Assembly (NCBI GenBank): GCA_963576725.1
Contig: OY755247.1
Span: forward strand, 12,280,534 to 12,344,533
Length of the DNA stretch: 64,000 bases
Origin: Azorinus chamasolen
Lineage: Eukaryota; Mollusca; Bivalvia; Cardiida; Solecurtidae
Direction of reading: 5' to 3'
A program made the position numbers and the translations under genes. Shown here one piece after another: positions 1 to 64,000 of the stretch. The notes under the pieces were generated by a model. That model did not search any database. It was not told the origin of the DNA and saw nothing but the letters and a program-made list of their open reading frames with translations. The stretch's first letter is position 1. Every line of letters starts with the position of its first letter.

Positions 1-275
1 CTCACACTTCTCTCAAAGTCACCCTAGCTTTACAAATATTGTAAATAAAGGTATCCCCGCTGGACTTACCCACAACATAGACGACGGTGAACACAGGACA
101 ACATGTAAAACATAGCATAATAACTGTGACAATCCGTCAAATATGTACTCAATGACTTTGCTGAAGTCAGAGCACCTGCAGGCAAGCCGTTAAGGGCACG
201 ACAGGGAAAAAATAATACATGAGTCTGGTAAGCTCCTCCTGTATCCAAGTTTAAGAGTATACCATCATAGAGTAC
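1..275 (-). other. Naiad-like Penelope element, 3' untranslated region and tail
   Basis: This sequence lies just past the stop codon of the reverse transcriptase ORF on the minus strand. Recognisable homologues occur at 8040-8640 (minus), 18430-18720 (plus) and 19553-19640 (minus). It is therefore the 3' part of the element and not unique flank. In the other copies the tail continues into a CA/GT microsatellite and ends near a CTACTTTTCCATT-like terminus. Here the window edge cuts it off. A SECIS-like fold sits at its start (214-276). Confidence 0.7.
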
Positions 276-276
276 T
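214..276 (-). promoter_or_regulatory. Candidate SECIS-like element in Naiad 3'UTR
   Basis: Read on the minus strand, an ATGA (268-265) is followed by 12 bases and then AAA, the spacing expected between a SECIS quartet and the apical adenines. The 12 bases TGGTATACTCTT pair in large part with GAGCTTACCA on the 3' side, with an internal mismatch. That arm is followed directly by GA, which supplies the partner for tandem G.A pairs. A lower helix AGTAC/GTATT can form outside. The ATGA, the AAA and the GA are kept in the diverged copies near 8594-8640 and 18436-18490. The fold was read by eye. The lower helix is short and overlaps the stop codon, so this is a candidate only. Confidence 0.45.
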
Positions 277-1744
277 ACCCTCGGCCTGTCATCGCGCAAG
301 CAAAGAGGGAAGCGTAGCTACCGACTGTAAAAGGGTCGATAACCAAACATGCAGTGTGTTGCAATATAATAGGATCATAACCTTTCTTTTTAAATTTTTT
401 AATGCGTTTTATAAACAAATCATGAAAATGGATATGACCCCGAATTTTCCTAAGTTTGTAGATAACATCCCCATAAAATTCTGGTTGAGAAATGCCTTGT
501 CGCAGTAACGTCCGTAGATTGCAATTATATTTACTAATGAGAGGTAAATTTCGATAATAAAATTTAGAAAAGGTTTTCCGAAGTTTGTGATATCTGTAAC
601 CTTGCTTAAGAAGTTTATCAGTTATAACTAAATTACGTCTGTTAAAATCTTCAAGCAAAGAACAGGCTCGGGCAAACCTAATAAGTTGAGAAATATAAAC
701 ACCATAAGATGTAGAACGTGGCACATCCCCATCTAGAAAAGGATAATTAACAATTTTAAAATTAAAATCTTCTCTTTTATCGTATACTTTGGACGAAACT
801 TTATCATTTGTAATTGAAAGATTCAAATCTAAAAATGAAGCATTAATGTCAGATTGATTAGCTTTGTTTAAAGACAGTTCTTTTAGGTAGATTGAAGAAA
901 CCATAGTATCAAAATAAGGATTATCTAAATTCAAAATATCGTCTAAATACCTTGAAGTTTTATTAAAAGCATTAACAATATCGGTCTGTGTATCAGGTTT
1001 TAAGCTAAGCATAAAATCCCTCTCGTAGCAATACAAAAACAAATCTGCAACAAGAGGGGCACAATTTGTACCCATGGGTATACCAACAACTTGACGATAT
1101 ATGGTATCTCCATAACGCACAAATATATTATCTAAAAGAAAGGTTAGAGATCTACAAACATCAAGGCAAGTCCACATTGTGTAATGTTCAACTTCTGAAT
1201 TCGAAAAGAATGAACGTTGAACATTACAAGCAATGAACATTTTGTTTTCTCTGGCAAAGGTTTTTTCTATTAATTTAATAAGTCTATCCTTTATAAGATG
1301 GTGAGGTAGAGTAGTATAGAGTGTAGAGAAATCATAAGAGCTCAGTAAAGAAATGTTATACTGTTCATTTTCAAGTTTTGTTAAAACATCATTTGAATTT
1401 TTTATGGACCAAAAAACATTAATACCAGAATTTTCATATATTTTATCACAGTAGCGTTTAACATGTTCTTTGATCGTAGTAAGACAGGACGTCAAAAGTA
1501 TAGATAATTTAGTAGTGGTACAACAGCTAGAGTTGGCAATAAAACGCGACTTATAAGGGTTTTTATGTAGTTTCGGAATCCAGTACAAAGTAGAAAGTTT
1601 ATGTTGTTTTATGTTAGGACCAGACTTAAAATCATTGCACATTTTTACATGTTCCGAGACTATATCTTTTTCAGGTGTTTGAACTGTTATATAAGTTTTT
1701 GAATCAGTTAGCTCCTTCTTTAAAACATCAACATAATACAATCT

Positions 1745-1747
1745 TCA
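1745..1747 (-). other. Second in-frame TGA at a family Cys position (possible selenocysteine)
   Basis: The codon falls between SNNVIII and RLYYVDVL. Related proteins, as recalled, read V-V-C-R here, so the TGA again stands where cysteine is expected. The frame is open for 29 codons before it and about 490 after it. Two TGAs, both at cysteine positions and with no TAA or TAG in the same stretch, fit recoding better than random decay. Confidence 0.5.
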
Positions 1748-2157
1748 AATAATGATTACATTGTTTGATGCCTTGTCAGCAGGAACAAGAACATAATCTG
1801 AATGAAAATTAGAAATGTTTTTCTTCAAGTAGCGAAATGTAACTCTAGGTCGAGGTGGTAAAAGATGGTTATTTGATTTGTAAAAGTTATTCGTGTATCA
1901 ATAATATCGAAAATACATTTCTTCCAATCCGAAAGGGCATTAACATCGGCATGTTCTCGTCGACACCATTTGATGCAGAATTCTTGAATAGCTTCCGCAA
2001 TATGAGTTCGACAAGCGTCAAAATCAATAAGGGAAGGTAATCTATATTTAGGTCCTTTAGTTAGGAGGGTCCTGAGACGTTGATCCTTAATGATATCAAA
2101 ATTACCAGTAATGACATGACCAACTGGTTTATAGCAAAAGCTAGAAATGCTACAATC

Positions 2158-2160
2158 TCA
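2158..2160 (-). other. In-frame TGA at the first Cys of the CxC motif (possible selenocysteine)
   Basis: The reading frame continues in family sequence on both sides: NTPIS before the TGA, and DCSISSF and GHVITGN after it. The TGA replaces the first cysteine of the C-x-C motif that defines Naiad/Chlamys elements. Selenocysteine in place of cysteine is the natural reading if the element has a SECIS. A TGC to TGA nonsense mutation is the alternative. Confidence 0.55.
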
Positions 2161-3312
2161 AGAAATAGGGGTATTAACATCAATATTTAAGTCAGAGACA
2201 ATTTTATTGTAGTTCAAAATAACATTTCTAATAGGTTTATTATATTTATAACAGATGATAGGTGATTCAGAGTTGATGAAATATTTTGGAATAGCCTCGA
2301 TTACATTCTTATCACGAAATATACTTTGAATATCAATAAAATCGATACCTTTATTTAGGAACTGAAGTTTCAGAAAATGTCTTTTATGTTCAGATTCTTT
2401 ATCAATACGTGGACGAAGAACATGCTGTGTGTAACTTTGTATAAGTGAGGCAGTATTAATTAACGGATCTGTACGCATATAGATTTTATCAGCCTCTTCG
2501 TCTATTGACTTAAGACAGGAAAAGGGTAAAGACGATAAACAAGATAACATAGAATGTTTACCAGTTTGTTTTAGAATAGTATGTAAATCATGAATAGACA
2601 TATTACGACGTAATTTACGCTTGATATTACCATTTCTACGTCTGCCATGTGATCTACTTTTACGTTTTCGAATAGAAAATATAGAGAAAATATCGATACT
2701 TGGATCTTTAGAAATATTGCCGCTGAAAGTCAAGTCACAAGATTTCGTACCCCTGACGATTGATCCATTGGACAACTGTCATTTTGTCTGTACGAATCAA
2801 TATATTGTGATTCTTGATTTGAGGAAGAAAATGTCTGACTGACTGAATCACTGCTTCCATTTCCAGACAATTGATGTGTTGCAGTTTTTGATTCATGTGT
2901 CCTCCCTATCCGAAAAGACTGGCATCGGTTGTCAATATTACAGGAAAAACCTTTGGTTGAAAAGCTTGACCCTTTAGAATATTTGCTTCTGTTACCGACT
3001 TGATTCTAGCAAAGGTGTAAGTGGAATCTGATGAAACATGTACATTATCAACGGACTCCAATTCTGTAAATTGTATATTTGGATAGAACGCACGAAAAGT
3101 CGTGCATTGGGAATCAAATCTAGACAAGAAGCTATATTTCTCAAGGGGTCATTTCACCGAGAAATCTTCCCGGAAGACTGAGCTGCGATCTCAGAGCGTG
3201 GCTTGATCGCCGCAGGTCGCACGTAGTCGACAGTTGACCGAGGGTTGGTCGTGCCTTGGTCTCCCGTGGTCGCACATGGTCGAGGATTGGTCTCCCGGAA
3301 AAACAGATCGTA

Positions 3313-3344
3313 GCTCGGTTTTTTGACATGTCAAAAAACCGAGC
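3313..3344. repeat. Perfect 32-bp palindrome
   Basis: The two halves, GCTCGGTTTTTTGACA and its exact complement, meet with no spacer. Each half ends in GCTCGG, which recurs near the element's right end (AGCTGCGAT and CCGAGC context). This may mark an older internal terminus, for example two element ends joined head to head. Confidence 0.85.
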
Positions 3345-3678
3345 CTCGACCTAAAAGTCGCACGGAGAGCGTCGAAAGAGCGAACAAGATCGAGGAAAGA
3401 ACGCATTGGTCGCGGGACGATCGAAACTAGAGCGGGGATGAGCTAGGCTCAGTCTTCTCGAGCGAGAATTGGTCGCGCGAATGGTCGTGCTGCTCGACCC
3501 CTGCTCGATCCCCGCTCGATCCGTGCGATCTATCTTCGCTCTTTTGCGATTAAGCCTCGCTCCGCGAGACCTGTCCCAGACCTTCCCTAGACCCGTACGT
3601 TCCATATTATTTCCATTGGCGGCCTCTGTGCACTTAAGCTTCAACCAAATAAGATCGACCCTCGCTTAACTTGCGGTT

Positions 3679-3948
3679 CTATAGATCTTCTATAGTTAGT
3701 ATCCATCTTTGCAATTCTAGGCCCCACCCTGGCCAAAAGTACGTCAAACATCTCCGGGGCATACGGAGATAGGTCCGGTAGGTAGCTTCATCTCCCAGCC
3801 TCAGTTCTGTCATGAGGGAGGTGTACTGACCATAATGTTCCCTCTGGTGTTCACGAGGCTCCTTTTCAGCATGGTTAGCATGGCCAGGGAGTCTTGCTGC
3901 AATTTCAGGGTATGGTGCTGTAATACATGTACAAATGTACACTAGCAT
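3679..3948 (-). pseudogene. Harbinger transposase N-terminal remnant
   Basis: The 89-residue frame includes EHYGQYTSLMTELRLGD followed by TYRTYLRMP, the pattern at the start of HARBI1-like transposases (short linker, L-x-x-x-L-R-L-x-D, Y-x-x-Y-L-R-M). The DDE catalytic domain that should follow is absent. The frame runs into non-coding GTCG-rich sequence, so the element was left non-autonomous by internal deletion. Confidence 0.5.
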
Positions 3949-4751
3949 GATGCAGAGCGATTGGGTCCATGTTATCCCTTCGGAGACTGGTCAAAAACTG
4001 ATGGTCGGCCAACGATCGCCGGGTATTGTTTAACGATCGCAGTGAGTCGCGCGCAAATCCGTGCAACCAAAACCAATGTGCGCGTAGCTCGGGCGAGACT
4101 CTGTCGAGAAAAGATCGAGAATTGGTCGTCTGAGCGAAGCTAGAACGTTCGAGATCGCATCTAAATCGTATTGATCGAGGGTACATTGCAACTCGTACGT
4201 AGCTAGATCGGTCGGGAACGAGTCTTGGTCGGTCGAGGTCGCGCGCTTGCGAAGATAGATCGCCGAGTGATCGAGGCAATGTCGCAGATTGGTCGAACAG
4301 AACGAACCTTGGTCGTGTCAAGATCGCTTCAGATCGAGTGGATAGACGTAGGTAGAGCGTATACAGAGCGTGTGTAGAGCGTATAGGACGTATATAGAGC
4401 GTACACATCGAAGGTCAAACGAGCTAACATCGAACATAGAGCGTGCACAGAAAATAATGGGGCAGGTCGCACGATTTTTGCCCGCGACCATGGGAAAACC
4501 GAGCTGCGATTAAGGTCGCGCGTGGTCGCGTGCGACTTTTCCAGGTCGTACTCGGTGAAATGGCCCCATCAACAGAACTTTAATAATAGCGTGTCGAAAT
4601 CAGTCCCTTTCAACCCCAAAATTCTCTCTGACTGAAATTCCATCCTATATATGATATGTCCTGACAGGGAACTTATTATGATTTGTTTCTTGTTCGCTAT
4701 AATTCCTAGACGAAAATGAGACTTAATGTTGTAATACGATTTTTCCAAAGT

Positions 4752-7890: not shown

Positions 7891-8265
7891 CCACAAAAAC
7901 ATCAAACAAGAACAAAAGCACAAATACAAAGACACAAAAACAAAGGCAATAAACAAACGCAAAGGCAAGGGTGACAAAGAGAGTACCGCCTTGGAACGGT
8001 CAGTGGCAAAGCCACTACTGGGGGTTTAAAACGGTTCACGGAAGTCCGAACCTCAAACTGATCTTAAAGTCACTCTCGCTTAACAAATAGTGTAAATAAA
8101 GGTATTCCCGTCAGACTTCTCCACAACATAGGAGGTGGTAAGCACAGGACAATATGTATAACATAAGCATGACAACAACTGTGAAAGTCAGTCAAATATA
8201 TACTCAATGACTTTGCTGAAGTCAGAACAACAGCAGTGCAGCCATTAAGGGCACGACAAAGAAAA

Positions 8266-8569
8266 GTAAAGTACCTTGTTATAGTCTACTTTCAGTCCGA
8301 ATGACCACTCAGCCGACTGTACATTTACTCCCCTGGTCATTGAGTCAGTCGCCTACAATATTGAGCACTGCTAACATATGGCGCAATCATGCAGCCGCAG
8401 TACCGGCTAGTGACACTTATGAGTACTCATCTAACACTTGGGTGGAGAGGAAGTGCGGATGGGAGACACTGAAAAGCATCTCTGATATTTCCGGGATGAA
8501 CCGGGATTTGAACCCCGGACCTCCGGACTGATAGTCAAGCGTGTTATCACTAGACCATCGCACATCACA
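8266..8569 (-). mobile_element. tRNA-derived SINE inserted in Naiad copy 2
   Basis: The minus strand begins with a tRNA-like head: box A-like TGGTCTAGTGATAAC and box B GGTTCAAATCC, between GTCCGGG and CCCGG arms. About 200 bp of SINE body follow. The undisturbed 3'UTR sequence is seen at 200-230. The SINE interrupts it, with a short imperfect duplication (GAAAAGTAA and AAAAGGCAA) at the two sides. The acceptor stem is degenerate, so this is not a functional tRNA. Confidence 0.7.
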
Positions 8570-8972
8570 AAAGGCAATACATGAGTCTGGTAAGCTCATT
8601 CTGTTTCTGGGTTTAAGAGTATACAATCATAGCGTACTACCCTCGGCCTGGCATCTTGCGATCAAAGAGGGAAGCATAGCTACCGACTGTAAAGGGGTTA
8701 TTAACCAAACATGGAATGTGTTGCAATATAATGGTCCATAATCTTTCTTCCTAAAAGTTTTAATGCGTTTAATAAACAAATCATGAAAATGGCTATAACC
8801 CAGGCATTTTCTAAGTTTGCAAATAACATCACCCTATTATTCTAGATAAGAATTTCCTGTTGCAATAACGTCCGTAAATGGCAATATATATTTACTAATT
8901 ATAGGTAAATTTCGATAATAAAATAAAGAAAAAAAACTTTCCTAATTGTATGATATATGTAACTTTGCTTAA

Positions 8973-9209
8973 AGGCATTTCGAAAGGAATGTTGACCCAT
9001 TAACCCCATGCTGTGCATTTGGGGAGTTGACTGTCAAGCATCTGATACACAAACTGATAAGGCGAGCTACCATCACAGAGGATCAATGGATAATTGCATA
9101 ACTTTATCTCTTATGGATATGGACCCTGACTGGACACTGCAGGAGCACAGCTGGATACTGTGTATATAGGGGGGGGGGGGTCACTTATATAAGGAGCTTT
9201 GAAATGCCT
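8973..9209. mobile_element. TTAA-type (piggyBac-like) MITE, copy 1
   Basis: The ends are AGGCATTTCGAAAG and CTTTGAAATGCCT, flanked by TTAA on both sides (8969-8972 and 9210-9213). The empty site is visible in the intact Naiad copy (CTTGCTTAAGAAG near 601-613). Removing 237 bp plus one TTAA restores it exactly. A second copy lies at 48705-48944. It has no coding capacity and contains a G run near 9170. Confidence 0.85.
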
Positions 9210-9335
9210 TTAAGAAGTTTATCAGTTATAATAGAATAACGACTATTATTTTTTCTAGCAAAGAACGGGCGGGCACATCTCATCTAGAAAAGGATAATTA
9301 ACAATTTCGAAATCAAAATCCCTTTCTTTTATCCC

Positions 9336-15815: not shown

Positions 15816-17265
15816 ATCTTTTATCTACTGGAATTCCGGTTTAGATGGGGTTTACTGTGCAGTACACCTCTGATAGTTCGAACCCTAAAACAAGTATCAT
15901 TATCTTACGTTTACGTTATCCATGAGTACTGAAATGTTACACAGTTGTGTAAAGAAAAACTCTTTGCGCCCATAAGTCTAGCCAGACACTTCATCGAGAC
16001 CCTTCCATAGGGGAGTAATCTCTGTGGTAAGTTTAATTGACAATACAGTGATTTTTCAAACAGAACACATTATTTGCAGTAGTACTAGCGCAAAAATGCC
16101 TCTAGTAGTATTTTATAAAGATAACACAGTCTCAACTACATATAGACATCGCTCCCATTTACGGTCATAGAAGCATACAGACAACATCTTATTTCGCTGC
16201 ATAAGCCAGGAATTTTCTACATATTTATGGAAACCTGTCTAGTTTATGATCCAGCTTCTACCATAAACAGTTTTAAATTGATCATCAGTAGTACGACAGA
16301 GTTTCGTAATATTGAAGTAATGCAGTTTTATTGTGTGTAAACTGCAAATTATACAGTTTTACCATTTACATAAGTATGTCACGAGTTTAATCTCTGATGC
16401 TATATTGATTTTATATAATTTACAGCGTAGATATTTTTTTAAATGCATTTAACCTCTGTTATTGGGTTTTAATTTATCGTCATCGTTGGCGCGTGTTCAT
16501 AAATTAAACATACCCCTTGAGCATTCCAGGGCCTCGGTTGAAAGTATTAATAGGTTATGCAACTTTATGCATGCACCTCTTTAATTGTACAGTTACTTTC
16601 GATGGGATGGTCTTCAATAGACTCATTCGCTACAAAGTAACGCATCAGACCAAACCCGCATCCATCTAATTCTTTCCATTAGAATAATTAGTCATACCGC
16701 TTTTTATTGACGTTGGGCTAGTTCCGTTCGACCCGCGAGGCATTGTTGGTTTTGTTTTCAATCGGCATCTATAACTAAATGTATCGGGTTTAAATAGGGT
16801 GGTTCCTTTTAATTATTCAGTACGAATCTTTCGCGGGTCGAATATATTATGGGACGAAGGCGTATCCCATTTGCGCGTGAAACTCTCCTGTGCGTGAAGT
16901 GTATGACAGACCGAGGGTAGTACTCTACAAGTTGGCTTCCTTCTGAAAGGAAGCCAAAGAGAGACCTGCAGCGGTTTTTATCGAACGTTTGCTATATACA
17001 GGGGTCGTTTGACAAGGTTTTGGCACCGGATCGTAAATAGGTTTCTATAAATAACTATTGTGCATATCAAGTAGTACGTGCGTTATAAATATAACGAAGA
17101 CGATGAATATCAAGCGCCACTGCTTAGGAAATATATAATGCTTTAATCGTTGCAAGTACATTTGCAAGAACAGTAGTTCTTTGAAAAAAAAGAGTATTCT
17201 TTGCTATGGAATTTATCCAGTCAGCAAGTTTCTCTAGTGTCGTAATAAAGGGGTGTGGATAAACT
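15816..17265. other. Region without recognised gene
   Basis: No coding exon is supported. Bases 16590-16860 hold a reverse-strand relative of the repeat at 14190-14370 (shared CGACCCGCGAGGCATTGT and TTCTTTCCATTAGAATAA). A perfect 11-bp stem with a 4-base loop (TTGGCTTCCTT/AAGGAAGCCAA) lies at 16932-16957. The rest is AT-rich and unassigned. Confidence 0.5.
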
Positions 17266-18424: not shown

Positions 18425-19010
18425 GAGGGTCTCTCCAATGATGGTATACTTTTAAACACAGAAACGGGATGAGCTTAACAGACTCATGTATTACCTTTTC
18501 CCTGTCGTGCCCTGAACGACTTACCGTCAGTTGCTCTGATATCAGCAAAGTCATTGAGTACATATTTGATGGATTTTTTCACAGTTGTTATGCTATGTTT
18601 TACATATTGTCATGTGTTTATCGTCTTCTATGTTGCGGGAAAGTCCGGCGGGGATACCTTTATCTACTCTATTTGTTAAGCTAGGATGACTTTGAGATAA
18701 GTGTGAGGTTAGAACGTCCGTAAACCGGTTTAACCCCCCCCCCAGTGGTGATTTTGATACTGACCGTTCCAAGGCGATACTCTCTTTGTCATACTTACTT
18801 TTGTTTGTCTTTGTACGTGTGCTTTTCTTCATGTTTGGAATGTTTATCTCTGGTGCTTGTGTTTTTGTTGGCGTTTTCTGTGTTCATCTCGTGTGTGTAC
18901 ATGTGTTTGGATGTATATTTGTGGCATGCTGTTTATCGATGTTTTGATAGTGGTTGCGTCTTGTATGTGGCTTTGTCTGCTTGACTTTACTACGTTTTCA
19001 TTTAAATCTC
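18425..19010 (+). mobile_element. Naiad 3' end, 5'-truncated, plus strand
   Basis: The fragment follows the 3'UTR (SECIS-like block at 18436-18490, then the CCCTGTCGTGCCC and AAAGTCATTGAGTACATAT blocks) into the tail (CTGACCGTTCCAAGGCGATAC at 18762). It ends near 19010 after GCTTGACTTTACTACGTTTT. The GT run is shorter here. It faces the copy at 19207-19640 tail to tail. Confidence 0.7.
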
Positions 19011-19206: not shown

Positions 19207-19640
19207 TTAGTTAGCATAATGTATTAATGGAAAAGTAGTAAAGTCAAGCAGGCAAAGCCACATGCAAGACGCAACCACCACCAAAACACCGATAGACAGC
19301 ATGACACACACACACAACCACACACCCAAACGCACGCACGCACACACACACACACACACACACACGAAATGAACACAGAAAACACCAAAAGAGACACAAG
19401 AACCAGGGACAAACGTTCCACAACATGAACAAACCACAAGCACAAAGACGCAAGGCAAACAAAAGGAAGGGTGACAAAGAGAGTACCGCCTTGGCACGGT
19501 CAGCAGCAAAAACACCACTGGGGGTTTAAACCGGTTTACGGACGTCCTAACCTCGCACTTCTCTCAAAGTCACCCTAGCTTTACAAATATTGTAAATAAA
19601 GGTATCCCCGCTGGACTTACCCACAACATAGACTCCACGA
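19207..19640 (-). mobile_element. Naiad 3' tail, 5'-truncated, minus strand
   Basis: The tail contains AAAGTAGTAAAGTCAAGCAG, a CA run at 19310-19365, GTACCGCCTTGGCACGGTCA, and then the segment identical in large part to window bases 1-80. The 200-bp spacer to the plus-strand copy is AT-rich and holds no gene. Inverted pairs are common for Penelope-like elements. Confidence 0.7.
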
Positions 19641-27924: not shown

Positions 27925-30900
27925 TGTTATTATTATTATACCACATTTATATAGCGCTCTTTTCACACAGGATGTGTGCGTTCAAAAGCGCTTCACATGA
28001 TTAAATTGCATGAACATAATTGAATATATATAATTCGTATAGAATATTAAAAAAAAAATGAAATTTACGATAGAGATATCAATAAAACTATCAACAATTG
28101 AATTAATTTAAGAATTATAGACAAAAACAAAATCATCCCTTTCTGTACATTTTTGTCCGCAATTCAAGGGAAACAGACGCACACCGTGACTACCGGTATA
28201 TTGTGTCCGCCCATTTATCAAACTCAAATGAAACATTATATATACAATGTCAGTACATCATACAGTTACGACCAAGAAACATCTGGATCGGGTTTATGTA
28301 TGACATACAACACTATACATTATATATTGCCTTACATATGTAGGACAATGGGTTAACAGAATAGGTCATTTTTGTAGCTAATGCATATAAACAAACACAA
28401 TGCAATTACAACAATTACAAACAAGCCACCAATATATACACCCCGTATGCAAAATTGGCAAAGGAGTATCGTAATATCAATCCAACCGACACTGAACGAG
28501 ACAAACAATGCCGTGCCAAGCCGCGGCCCAAGTGGTTTCAAAGAGATTGGGCTATCCCTACCATCAAGATCCACCACTCAGCACAAAGCGACACACACAT
28601 CAAGTGCCTAGGAACAGTGGCCATCCAAACAACTGACAGGATATACCTTGACCAATAATTTGCAAGTAACAAAATGCTCGAGATGGGAGGGATTCGAAAA
28701 TGTCCCATGGCCAAGGCAACAGTTATCATGATTGATAATTATTAGCTACGTTCTCTTAATTTGCCTAATAATTTCCTAGTAAAATATGCCAAAGAAACGC
28801 GTTTTTCAGGCATCAACTGACACTGAATGAGACACACAATGCTGTCCCGAGCCGCAATCCGAGTGGTTTCAAAAGAGATTGGGCTATCCCTACCGTCAAG
28901 ATCCACCACTCCGTGGCCAAAGCAACAGTCATCGCGATTGATAGTCATCAGTTACGCCCCTTAATTTCCCTAGTAATGTCCTAGTGAAATATGCTAAAGA
29001 CAAGCATTTTTAGACATCAACTGACACTGAATGAGACACACAATGCTGTCCCGAGACGCAATCCGAGTGGTTTCAAAAGAAATTGTCCCTACCGTCAAGA
29101 TCCACCACCCAGCACAATGTGACACACAGAGTGCCTTCAAACAGTGGCCAACTAAATAACTGACAGGTAATTAATTACTCGACAAATATCTACCATCCTA
29201 GTAAAATATGTTGAAGAAATGAGTTTTTAGACATCTTTTAGAAGATGCCAGTGAGGTGGCATCTTTGATGCCAAACGGCAGAGCATTCCAAAGTTTTGGA
29301 GCTGTATGCATGAAACTTCTATCTCAGTATTTTACCGTCCGACATTTTGGCACAACCAACGACACTGAACTACTTGCTGACCTTAACTCTCTGCGAGGCC
29401 TGTGCACGTCAATCATGTTGACAATGTACTTGGGGGATTCATTGTGCATGGCTTTGTACGTAAGTGTCAAAATTTTGAATTCGATCCGATGTTGAACCGG
29501 AAGCCAGTGAAGTCATTTTTCAGGCGTTTTAGCAACGCTTCATGATCAATAGTATCAAACGCAGCCGATATGTCCAGCATCACCAGAATTGTAATTACGT
29601 TTTTATCCAGGGATTGAAGGATGTCGTTCTGAACTTTTAGAAGAGCAGTCTCTGTTGCATGATAATTCCGGTATGCAGACTGATGATGCTCATGCAGATT
29701 GTTTGAGGTCAGGTGTGACTCTATGCGTTTGTCGACCACTTTGTCTAACACCTTAGAGACAAATGGCAAATTTGATACAGGCCTATAGTTTTTAAGTTCA
29801 TTTGAATCGAGACCCGGCTTCTTTAGAAGGGGCTTGATATGTGACACCTTGAACTGGTTTGGAACGTACGCTGTGTCTAAAGAGGAGTTTACAATTTTTG
29901 TCAAAAACGGTAGGAGTTCATCAAGGCATGACTTTAACAGCCATGTATGTATTGGGTCCAGTTCACAGGACTTGCAGGGGGATGCCTTAATTATTTCTTC
30001 TACTTCTGCTGGTGTAGCTGGATCAAAACTATCTAAAGGGTATGTTGAATGCTGCGTTTTAGTGGTAACTTGACCACAATTGGGTACAGAACCTGATGCA
30101 ATATCTGCCTGTATTCTGTCTACTTTGTCAATGCAAAATTCGCAGAAGTCTTTCGCAAGTTGTTTTTGAAGAAGACGTTTCAGGCAATGTGATGACGCTA
30201 GTAGCACCCAGCATATGCTTGGTGACTTTGAAAAGGTTCTTTGGGTCCCTTTGGTATGATTCTATTTTCTCTGAGTATAAATCAACCTTTGACTGTTGCG
30301 CACTGTTCTCCGTACAGTTGATTATCTACTGTGAGTACGGAATTTTTCCAGTCCGTTCCAACTTGCGCCTTACATGTTTAGCATCGTGCAGTTCCTGGGT
30401 ATACTACGGACAACATGGTCTGAGAGTTATGGTTTTTAGTACACAATGGTGCATGTTTATTTGCGAGTGCCGACAGTGTTTGCGCATATGTGTTGACCAG
30501 CTCATCAACATATGTCATTTGCATACTTGCTTTGATGGATCCAGAGTTGAGGAGATCTCTTTTGAATGAATCGACGTTAATTGCCCTAAGTTTCCGAAAA
30601 GAAACAGTTTTTCTCACTGTAGGAGGTTTTACAGCCTTTGCTTCGAAGGTTACAGCGAAATGATCACGAGAAATTTTACCACTATTGTCATAAAGGCCTG
30701 GCTCGGTGACTTTAATATTTGACACACAGTCATCACCATCTCTCGTAAAAATGACATCAAGCGTATGTCCGCCAATGTGAGTGGCTTCACTCACATGCTG
30801 TTGCAATCCAAATGAATCCAGTGTTCTAACAAAGTTAGCCGTGTTTTTGTCATCTGGAATGTCAAGATGAATGTTTAAGTCTCCCACAATGACGACTGGT

Positions 30901-31370
30901 CTGTTTGTGGTCGTAAGTTTAGATAAGAAAAGTGGCCATTCATTCTCAAGAAAATCTCCAGTTTTAAGACAATTTCCCCGCGATGGTGGTGGTCTAAACA
31001 ACTGCTAGGCGCAGAGTGAAATCTCGTATACTTAAAGTACAGTCCATGTACTCAAAGTTTGAGAATTCATTGTCTCTTGTTGATGTAAAGAGACGAAGTC
31101 CTATTGAGACCTTATGTATGACTGCTACCCCGCCGCCACGGTTGCCACTGCAACGAGGGACATGTTCAATTTTGTAATAGGTGGGATTCAGTTCGCTTAA
31201 GCATGATTTATCTACAGAACCACCGAGCCAGGTTTCTGTAATGGCTACTACATCAAAGTCATTTGAAACGATATAGTCACAAATAGAAAGAGCCTTGTTT
31301 GTTACTGATCTAGGGTTTATACTGCATACTTTTACAAACGTTTGAATTCTGACTGGCATCGGAGTTTCAC
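27925..31370 (-). pseudogene. CR1-like LINE with deleted RT core
   Basis: The minus strand encodes an AP endonuclease: INPRSVTNKA, ITETWLGG, NRGGGVAV, then in a second frame VGDLNIHLD and HTLDVIFTRD. RT follows, with LKNYRPVSNLPFVSKVLDKV, HQSAYRNYHATETALL and motif A LDISAAFDTIDH. At 29510 the sequence jumps directly to the thumb-like LHWLPVQHRIEFKIL (other frame) and APKLWNALPF. About 1 kb, including the catalytic F/YADD, is therefore missing. The 3'UTR (29210-27925) has three diverged direct repeats (near 28490, 28815 and 29030) and ends GCGCTATATAAATGTGG plus an ATT microsatellite. Copies of this 3' end lie at 40259-41165 and 43566-44350. It cannot move by itself. Confidence 0.8.
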
Positions 31371-53325: not shown

Positions 53326-54228
53326 TCAGGATAAGGTATTATTCACTTCGTTGACTTCTCGAACCATATTGTATGCAAGGTGAAACCAATTGCCCAGAGC
53401 TCTGTATGCTTGTATTTTAATTGTCGGTTTAATATTTCTTAATCCCTCTTGCGAGTACATTCCATAAAGAATCTGTTGGTCCGTATTCATTAAACCACGA
53501 GAAAGAAAGTAGTCCACGGCTCTTTGGTATTCATCCGCATGCAAAATCATGACGTCAAATCGTCCAAAAAATAAACCGCCACACACCCATATCATGTTAT
53601 GTAGGAATATATTCTCAACGGTGGCTTTTTCATTTCTTATTCGAAGTTCCGACATAACAACTGACGAATCGTTATATCCTTTAGGCTTGACCAGATGAAA
53701 CATTTTTGTTGACTGACGACTACGGAATAAACCGACATCTATCCAAGTGAAATATTTCGTCTGGAAATAGTTCTGCACCGCTGCCCTTTTAACGGCGTCA
53801 TATTTCGCATGTTGTGTGCATGGATACTCTGGAACCACGGTATTTGGGAGGTAACGAGGATATCCGGGACGGGAATATATTTGTTTAATCTTTTCCATAC
53901 GTTGAAATGCCCACGACGAGTTTCTGTCAACCAGAAGAATACGCGTGCGATATGCTGTATTGTTCCGGATACGTCTAACAATATCGTAAAAGTCCTTAGA
54001 ATCTGTGTATACAACGAATGGATTTAGAATAAACTGGAACGCCTTTGCCCATTTGTGGTATAGCTGATTGTCTCTGGAATTATATGCCATGCGTTTTGTG
54101 AACTGTCCAATGTTCCAGTACGCAGATACCACTGTTATTTCGTCCGAGAGTTGTTGTGTGTTGACGAAGAATGATCGGTTGTCGCCAACTGGTAACTGGT
54201 GACCGTTATGACGTGTTGCTATCTGTAA
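53326..54228 (-). CDS. HtrL/YibB (WlaTC-type) glycosyltransferase-like protein, terminal exon
   Basis: This is the only long intact frame in the window with a cellular look. An acceptor (TTTTCACAAATATTTCAG) ends at 54229 and the exon opens in phase 0, giving about 300 codons to TGA at 53328-53326. Family marks, numbered on the two-exon model with the 59429-59334 exon (332 residues), are SAYWNIGQF (about 67), NPFVVYTD (100), a PNTVVPEYPCTQHAKYDAV block (159), YFTWIDVG (190), WVCGGLFFGRFDVM (242) and NTDQQILYGMY (281). The W-x-D-x-G site probably takes the place of a DXD-type metal/nucleotide-sugar site. With its signal anchor the product should be a Golgi-type II membrane enzyme. Substrate is unknown. 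The 5.1-kb intron holds pearl G, a TTAA MITE and part of segmental copy 2. Confidence 0.8.
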   Translation of the reverse strand, partial: LQIATRHNGHQLPVGDNRSFFVNTQQLSDEITVVSAYWNIGQFTKRMAYNSRDNQLYHKWAKAFQFILNPFVVYTDSKDFYDIVRRIRNNTAYRTRILLVDRNSSWAFQRMEKIKQIYSRPGYPRYLPNTVVPEYPCTQHAKYDAVKRAAVQNYFQTKYFTWIDVGLFRSRQSTKMFHLVKPKGYNDSSVVMSELRIRNEKATVENIFLHNMIWVCGGLFFGRFDVMILHADEYQRAVDYFLSRGLMNTDQQILYGMYSQEGLRNIKPTIKIQAYRALGNWFHLAYNMVREVNEVNNTLS

Positions 54229-54381
54229 CTGAAATATTTGTGAAAATCATGATTTGAAAAGTATTATTCGATAAAGCGGTGGTCCAGATAAGATTCGTAA
54301 ATTGAAACATTTTCAAGAATAACTTCTTTATTTCTCTTTTATTTTTTATAACTCTTCAGTACAGGAAAAGTAAACCCTTTT

Positions 54382-62986: not shown

Positions 62987-63182
62987 TTAAAGCTTAAATG
63001 TGGTGAATAAGGTTAGAAATAGAACGTATATATAGTAAACACACGGACATTAAATTTAGTACAAATATCGGTCTTGGAGCAGGTGGCAGCTAAATGTTGG
63101 AGACAGGTGGCACTTAATGCAGGGTGAAAATCATCCAGAAAGCTCCTTAAGGATGCAGGCTGAAAGTCATGCAGAAAATATC

Positions 63183-63325
63183 TATTGTATGTTTGTTTTG
63201 TCTTTGTGCGTCTCTTGTTGTTTTTTCTACCTATGTACATTTGCTGTTTCCTTGTGTTGCTGTTCGGGCGAGTGTTTGTTCTGTATGTGGTGTTTCCTGC
63301 ATGACTCATTTTTGTACTTTTATTA
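63183..63325 (+). mobile_element. Naiad tail variant, possible pseudo-LTR upstream of an ORF
   Basis: TATGTTTGTTTTGTCTTTG through CATGACTCATTTTTGTAC matches 7200-7345. A Naiad-like ORF in the same orientation starts 260 bp downstream. Penelope-like elements often carry a copy of their 3' end upstream of the ORF (pseudo-LTR), which this arrangement would fit. Confidence 0.5.
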
Positions 63326-63581: not shown

Positions 63582-64000
63582 ATGAATAAAGTTAAAATAC
63601 CTCGAATAGAACTAAAAGCTTTAAATATGCAATCTGTGTCGTCTGTACAAGTACCCAGAAATATTTCTAATTTCTCTTCCCTTCAACCATTTGTTCGTTT
63701 AAAACAACTTAATCTTCAGTCGGCTTCATCTTTTCACATACCATCTCTTTCTATTAATAAATGTTTTTTCAATGGACCAAGAGTTGTACTTTCACCTTTA
63801 AAATCTGTTATCCAAAATGTTTCTTCTATTCGTAAACGGTCCTTATGCAGACGACACAGAGTGTATCCAATTATCCAAAAGTGCTTTGCTAAGAGGTGCA
63901 TATGTTGTAGTAACATTTCTTGTAATTCCACTATAAAATCTACAGTTAATGGTAGAACATTTAATGTCAAGATAAACTCAGACGTTGATTGTACTACTAC
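63582..64000 (+). CDS. Naiad-like ORF, N-terminal part, runs off the window
   Basis: ATG 63582 opens a frame with no stop to the window end (139 codons); an in-frame TGA lies 54 bases upstream. The product is basic and Ser/Asn-rich (MNKVKIPRIELKALNMQ, RKRSLCRRHRVYPIIQKC). It then has a Cys cluster (KRCICCSNISCNST) followed by VNGRTFNVKINSDVDC. In Penelope-like GIY-YIG endonucleases and their relatives, a Cys-rich segment and a short V-x-G-R-x-F strand come just before the GIY-YIG core. An N-terminal endonuclease is what defines Naiads. The core itself would be past 64000, so the assignment is inference. Confidence 0.45.
   Translation, partial: MNKVKIPRIELKALNMQSVSSVQVPRNISNFSSLQPFVRLKQLNLQSASSFHIPSLSINKCFFNGPRVVLSPLKSVIQNVSSIRKRSLCRRHRVYPIIQKCFAKRCICCSNISCNSTIKSTVNGRTFNVKINSDVDCTT

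Follow-up and report, generated by a model that had tools for sequence, protein, structure and literature searches.

The window, i.e., the whole stretch of 64,000 nucleotides of Azorinus chamasolen DNA that was analyzed, holds at its left end a minus-strand copy of a retrotransposon that is very probably a Naiad-type Penelope-like element (family 1), followed by further fragments of related sequence, and at its right end the beginning of a second, plus-strand element of the same kind (family 2) (Table 1). The 3' end of the family 1 copy lies 322 bases past window base 1. Its 5' start corresponds to codon 248 of the intact open reading frame (ORF), and it is therefore devoid of the N-terminal GIY-YIG domain and of two further TGA codons (137 and 148) that are present in complete copies. 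The original prediction had placed the element at 275..2740; the lower limit does coincide with the stop codon TAG of the ORF, whereas the element itself starts at 2724 and continues beyond the window. The region downstream of the second TGA contains KLHKNPYKSRF, YDFSTLYT, GIPMGTNCAP and YLDD, which we take to be reverse transcriptase (RT) motifs.

Two in-frame TGA codons had been predicted at 2160-2158 and 1747-1745 of the minus strand, and both are present with open coding sequence on either side. The first was said to lie in a C-x-C motif, and codons 436-438 indeed read U-D-C, with U denoting the TGA. Likewise, the expected absence of TAA and TAG from the coding stretch was confirmed for the pieces 2739-1861 (frame A, 293 codons) and 1867-278 (frame B, 530 codons). 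The idea of one RT frame running through both TGA codons had to be given up, as the codons are 413 bases apart, in different frames, with a 1-base deletion between them. Of 47 genomic copies, just one carries an indel within the aligned ORF stretch, namely that of the window, which has lost one base in comparison to the full-length copy L015. Being both truncated and frame-shifted, the window copy is dead. Under a model of random nonsense substitutions, 5-7% of them would create a TGA at a Cys codon, and finding two of two TGAs at such codons has a probability of ~0.003-0.005, provided that both codons once encoded Cys.

Table 1. Positions of the element copies and of their parts within the window
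Feature	Positions	Strand	Basis
Family 1 Naiad-like element, 5'-truncated	1..2724	-	Identity of 99.4% to full-length L015 (alignment of 2725 columns)
In-frame TGA, codon 436, first residue of CxC (U-D-C)	2158..2160	-	Family 1 copies and family 2
1-base deletion with change of frame, approximate place	1860..1900	-	Frames differ; indel private to the window copy
In-frame TGA, codon 574, start of RT region (VIII-U-RLYY)	1745..1747	-	Family 1 copies and family 2
Open stretch of 489 codons with the RT and C-terminal region	278..1744	-	Open in all 87 scored genome copies
ORF stop codon TAG	275..277	-	TAG in 47/47 copies
SECIS-like hairpin, begins within the stop codon	214..276	-	Rfam SECIS_1, fold, identity among copies
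Older decayed fragment, C-terminal coding part and 3' UTR	8052..9333	-	blastn pieces, 78-87% identity
Older fragment with 3' UTR only, its 5' side truncated within the SECIS region; 3' limit approximate	18438..19000	+	
Young 3' UTR-only fragment	19230..19633	-	Forms a tail-to-tail pair with 18438-19000
Family 2 pseudo-LTR, 142 bases	63182..63323	+	Second copy with 100% identity after the ORF (L057:5142-5283)
Family 2 ORF, first 139 codons	63582..64000	+	Remainder outside the window, in L057

Architecture and class of the element

The order of GIY-YIG, CxC linker and RT defines Naiads among the Penelope-like elements. In full copies from the A. chamasolen genome, the GIY-YIG region is located N-terminal to the CxC and RT motifs. 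When the domain was scanned alone, Pfam GIY-YIG (PF01541, cut-off 22.6 bits) matched family 2 with 27 bits at about aa 142-235, and family 1 with 20.8 bits, which is under the cut-off; the same profile gave no match when the whole proteins of both families were scanned. A Naiad with an N-terminal GIY-YIG domain had been predicted from the window copy; the domain was recovered from full copies, above the Pfam cut-off in family 2 only, and has been lost from the copy for which it was proposed. The CxC motif is encoded as TGA-D-C (U-x-C) in both families and is a CxC motif only if the TGA stands for Cys or selenocysteine (Sec). The family 1 copy L015 is bounded by pseudo-LTRs that form a 331-bp direct repeat with 100% identity, and family 2 possesses a shorter repeat of the same type. 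Among the Rfam matches listed at E up to 10 for the window, and at E up to 5 for L015, L018 and L057, there was no hammerhead ribozyme. Structure prediction (AF2) was of low confidence, with mean pLDDT values of 34 and 30, and PDB searches returned nothing significant (best E 0.29 and 0.08).

It is improbable that the element belongs to a non-Naiad clade of retroelements that acquired a permuted endonuclease. Such an assignment would draw on the fact that the Pfam RT profiles matched neither the 489-aa piece of the window, nor the full ORF of either family, nor the RT piece of family 2; the RT clade is therefore judged by motifs only, recognized by eye, and the Naiad identity is read from features of the element. 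Those features, i.e., the N-terminal GIY-YIG domain (27 bits), the CxC linker, the pseudo-LTRs and the tandem arrays, nevertheless fit the Penelope-like elements with an N-terminal endonuclease.

Relatives were also sought outside this genome. None were confirmed in viral contigs, and phages and plasmids gave no match to the element. Among genome contigs, one search confirmed none, and a second gave one record, labelled as a mussel symbiont (L001, JACCHT010000015.1). This record contains a Penelope-like RT fragment on the minus strand at 3246-3582 (tblastn E 1e-21), and its significant matches do not span the TGA sites. The fragment is probably host contamination of the record of the symbiotic bacterium.

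In-frame TGA codons in two families

The 1.72-Gb assembly (137 contigs) was searched using the 489-aa C-terminal piece as the query. At least 87 family 1 copies were scored out of 48,801 first-look candidates, all with 100% identity and an open frame, and several of them are arranged in tandem arrays with a spacing of 4.19-4.21 kb. For the tallies at individual sites, 47 of the 87 scored copies, including the window copy, were aligned to L015, in which the ORF comprises 1063 codons from the presumed start; 13 of the 47 reach codon 1. Full copies of family 1 carry four TGA codons. TGA was found in every copy that covers the respective site, i.e., at codon 137 (22/22), codon 148 (24/24), codon 436 (40/40) and codon 574 (47/47), as had been proposed for a test in which TGA is kept while other stops vary between copies: the aligned stretches contain only two additional in-frame stops, both TAA and each private to a single copy (L027 and L056). 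The copies are nearly identical, with a median difference from L015 of 0.50%, so TGA retention inside the family constitutes weak independent evidence, and the lack of variants at the TGA codons is uninformative given so few bases.

The variation among family 1 copies nonetheless carries a signal of selection. Variants common to at least two copies comprise 26 synonymous and 13 nonsynonymous changes, which, when compared with a mutational opportunity of 2029 synonymous, 7047 nonsynonymous and 455 stop changes, indicates that the family 1 lineage has been under purifying selection. Singleton variants comprise 43 synonymous and 44 nonsynonymous changes and 2 stops.

The ORF of family 2, which is completed in L057, also has 1063 codons, and its arrays are spaced 3.96 kb. 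Its TGA codons are located at positions 148, 436 and 574, all beyond the window, while codon 137 is TGT (Cys; window 63990-63992, plus strand), in contrast to the TGA of family 1. Exactly three TGAs were present in each of the 43 scored full-length matches in the genome (43/43, of 49,356 candidates), one of which also holds one TAA. The two families share 70% identity over 1061 aligned codons, and the frame of neither L015 nor L057 is interrupted by TAA or TAG. Comparison of the two gave an overall dN of 0.21 and dS of 1.97 (NG86), and hence a dN/dS of ~0.1; this ratio is rough, because dS is undefined in two of the five segments delimited by the TGA codons (1.0-2.1 in the other three), with dN per segment ranging between 0.19 and 0.36.

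Two young families that are distant in sequence thus keep the same three TGA codons, and at the fourth site a TGA in one family faces a Cys codon in the other. The original prediction had stated that TGA stands where relatives have Cys. This was borne out at codon 137, a site that the window copy does not include; a Cys-bearing relative is known for this one of the four sites, and the two codons to which the statement referred, 436 and 574, are TGA in both families, as is codon 148.

SECIS-like hairpin and reading of the TGA codons

A SECIS element was named beforehand as something to look for, and the search was successful in part: a SECIS-like hairpin begins at the stop codon in both families, with Rfam scores that remain below the SECIS_1 gathering score of 35. 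In family 1, the match at 276-214 scores 23.2 bits, with an E value of 0.35 over all 4227 Rfam families and 4.2 kb scanned, which by division is ~8e-5 for the single family that had been named. It is also the sole SECIS_1 match within the 64-kb window at E up to 10 (all-family E 5.3). The match at the same place in family 2 scores 26.0 bits, with E values of 0.01 in 701 bases and 0.25 in 17 kb. The family 1 hairpin contains AUGA at 268-265, UAAAC in the apical loop and GA on the 3' side. A strict SECIS pattern of our own design recovered one site in the two strands of the window taken together (at 268), against ~0.6 expected by chance, and did not find the hairpin of family 2.

Folding of the family 1 sequence (289-201) gave -29.7 kcal/mol with a z score of -3.28, and 2 of 200 shuffled sequences folded as well; for 276-214 alone the z score was -2.02. 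The family 2 sequence folded at -21.0 kcal/mol (z -2.12, 6/200 shuffles as good). Although each was folded alone, the two adopt a common shape, in which the outer stem is followed by an internal loop with AUGA opposite GA, then by the inner stem, the AAA and a further small stem. Of the 30 base pairs of family 1, 26 are kept in family 2, and seven are changed on both sides. Covariation was evaluated in an alignment of four sequences, two of which are decayed copies. In this alignment, 82.6% of the cells pair, a fraction reached in 20 of 500 shuffles (shuffled mean 79.9), and slid versions of the structure gave 42-55%. Seven pairs are altered on both sides against 3.6 in shuffles (8/500 reach 7), and the covariation score was reached by 26/500 shuffles; the counts of pair types were not raised, with 385/500 shuffles reaching the observed value. 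The old copies at 8640 and 18438 yielded no Rfam SECIS match and folded poorly. Within family 1, the 64 bases from the second base of the TAG are identical in 47/47 copies; immediately past this conserved stretch, L026 shows 3 differing bases.

The hairpin bears on the question of how the TGA codons are read. Translation through them by a SECIS-independent route, i.e., read-through or a suppressor tRNA inserting Cys, Trp or Arg, would account for the selected frames that stay open past the TGAs, which suggest that these are translated somehow. We regard this route as improbable, since the hairpin possesses the SECIS core motifs together with paired changes and the sole exchange observed at a TGA site is with Cys. 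Furthermore, the window pieces use TGT or TGC for each of their other 24 Cys codons and also contain 5 Trp codons, which opposes a general reassignment of TGA; general reassignment was rejected on this basis.

Also improbable is the view that dead copies, mobilized in trans by intact ones, have spread the TGAs as plain nonsense mutations. The window copy is itself truncated and frame-shifted, and because copies are near identical within a family, one inherited lesion would look fixed. Against this view, three TGAs are common to two families separated by a dS of ~2, unaccompanied by TAA or TAG and with a dN/dS of ~0.1; both families are young and multi-copy; and both have the SECIS-like hairpin at the stop codon. 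Random decay was rejected given the shared TGAs, the missing TAA and TAG, the low dN/dS and the hairpins.

We therefore favor, with a probability of roughly 0.9, the interpretation that the element is a recently active Naiad-type Penelope-like retrotransposon whose single ORF is a selenoprotein gene, with Sec insertion inferred. In the proposed mechanism, a single SECIS hairpin starting at the stop codon would recruit the host Sec factors, and these would decode UGA as Sec at codons 137 and 148 in the endonuclease domain, at codon 436 in CxC and at codon 574, where the RT region starts. The endonuclease would nick DNA and the RT would copy the element RNA, presumably by target-primed reverse transcription, and the Sec residues may serve in metal binding or in the redox chemistry of the endonuclease and RT. 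Truncation at the 5' end and tandem insertion could then generate fragments like those in the window. An element that needs UGA recoding would depend on tRNA-Sec, EFSec and the SECIS-binding protein of its host, and its movement should consequently follow the selenium supply. In addition, as the hairpin starts inside the stop codon, a terminating ribosome would be expected to open it.

A more far-reaching and speculative possibility, which we consider unlikely, is that Sec has a function of its own. In that case Sec would replace a Cys of a cysteine-histidine cluster in the endonuclease, the first Cys of CxC and a Cys of the RT region, so that the rate of transposition would depend on the redox state of the host and on how much selenium it supplies. 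The one SECIS at the stop codon would then serve all Sec codons, and its melting by terminating ribosomes would act as built-in feedback.

Host selenoprotein genes have a SECIS in the 3' UTR and in-frame UGA codons at conserved sites, where Sec exchanges with Cys. The element resembles them in its conserved in-frame UGA codons, the exchange with Cys and a SECIS-like fold with a small extra apical stem; unlike them, it is mobile and high-copy, has up to four UGAs, and its hairpin overlaps the stop codon. Naiads were reportedly described by Craig, Yushenova, Rodriguez and Arkhipova in 2021 as Penelope-like elements with an N-terminal GIY-YIG domain, and those of clams and spiders are said to encode several selenocysteines. 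With Sec-coding clam and spider Naiads reportedly already published, the present element adds to a known kind. It is like Naiads in the order of GIY-YIG, CxC and RT, the pseudo-LTRs and the lack of a listed hammerhead, as well as, by description, in its several in-frame TGAs and the SECIS-like hairpin after the ORF. Earlier descriptions of Naiads may already include the set of four or three TGAs, the exchange of Cys and TGA between two families of a single genome, and the hairpin that starts in the stop codon.

Pseudo-LTRs and tandem copies are described for Penelope-like elements in the account of an Anolis element (PMC11167929), and this canonical Penelope/Poseidon element likewise combines a single ORF encoding RT and GIY-YIG with pseudo-LTRs and tandem copies. 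In contrast to the elements described here, where GIY-YIG is N-terminal, no hammerhead is listed and TGAs are in frame, the same account gives a C-terminal GIY-YIG and a hammerhead for Penelope/Poseidon (PMC11167929).

Two young families with four and three TGAs in one genome form a natural pair for the question of the change from Cys to Sec, i.e., why a retrotransposon swaps one for the other and what effect this has on the endonuclease. Annotation that reads TGA as a stop would call such elements broken.

Other fragments and neighboring sequences

A repeat has inserted into the older fragment at 8052..9333, at about 8575-8266. This insert (minus strand) is SINE-like, has a head that resembles a tRNA (22.2 bits for Rfam tRNA, under the cut-off) and splits the 3' UTR of the old copy directly after its hairpin. 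The two 3' UTR-only fragments can be aligned with each other (18438..19000 with 19633-19230); the older one shares 86% identity with the window copy across 270 columns, and the young one agrees with the window copy at 81 of the 82 bases of their overlap. A 25-bp piece at 16903-16927 (plus strand, 96%) matches the Naiad ORF end to just past the stop and is joined to sequence with no match to the element.

The truncated Naiad copy adjoins the remains of another element at 2780-3150 (minus strand), which encode an RNase H-like peptide (INCLEMEAV..., LIRTDKMTVVQWINRQG) and resemble DIRS/Ngaro-type elements; the two pieces of it that were scanned gave no Pfam match. Odd tracts rich in cgacca/ctcgac-like words lie beside the Naiad copy at 3050-4400. 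Upstream of the pseudo-LTR of L015, at a distance of ~175 bases, a 5S rRNA gene match was detected (L015:137-255, 119 bits). Further into the window, a decayed LINE-like element occupies 29467-31004 (minus strand), with an RVT_1 match of 52.5 bits and endonuclease-like matches under the cut-off. An open frame of 306 aa at 53326-54246 (minus strand) matches HtrL_YibB (PF09612, 42.8 bits) and is perhaps an exon of a host gene.
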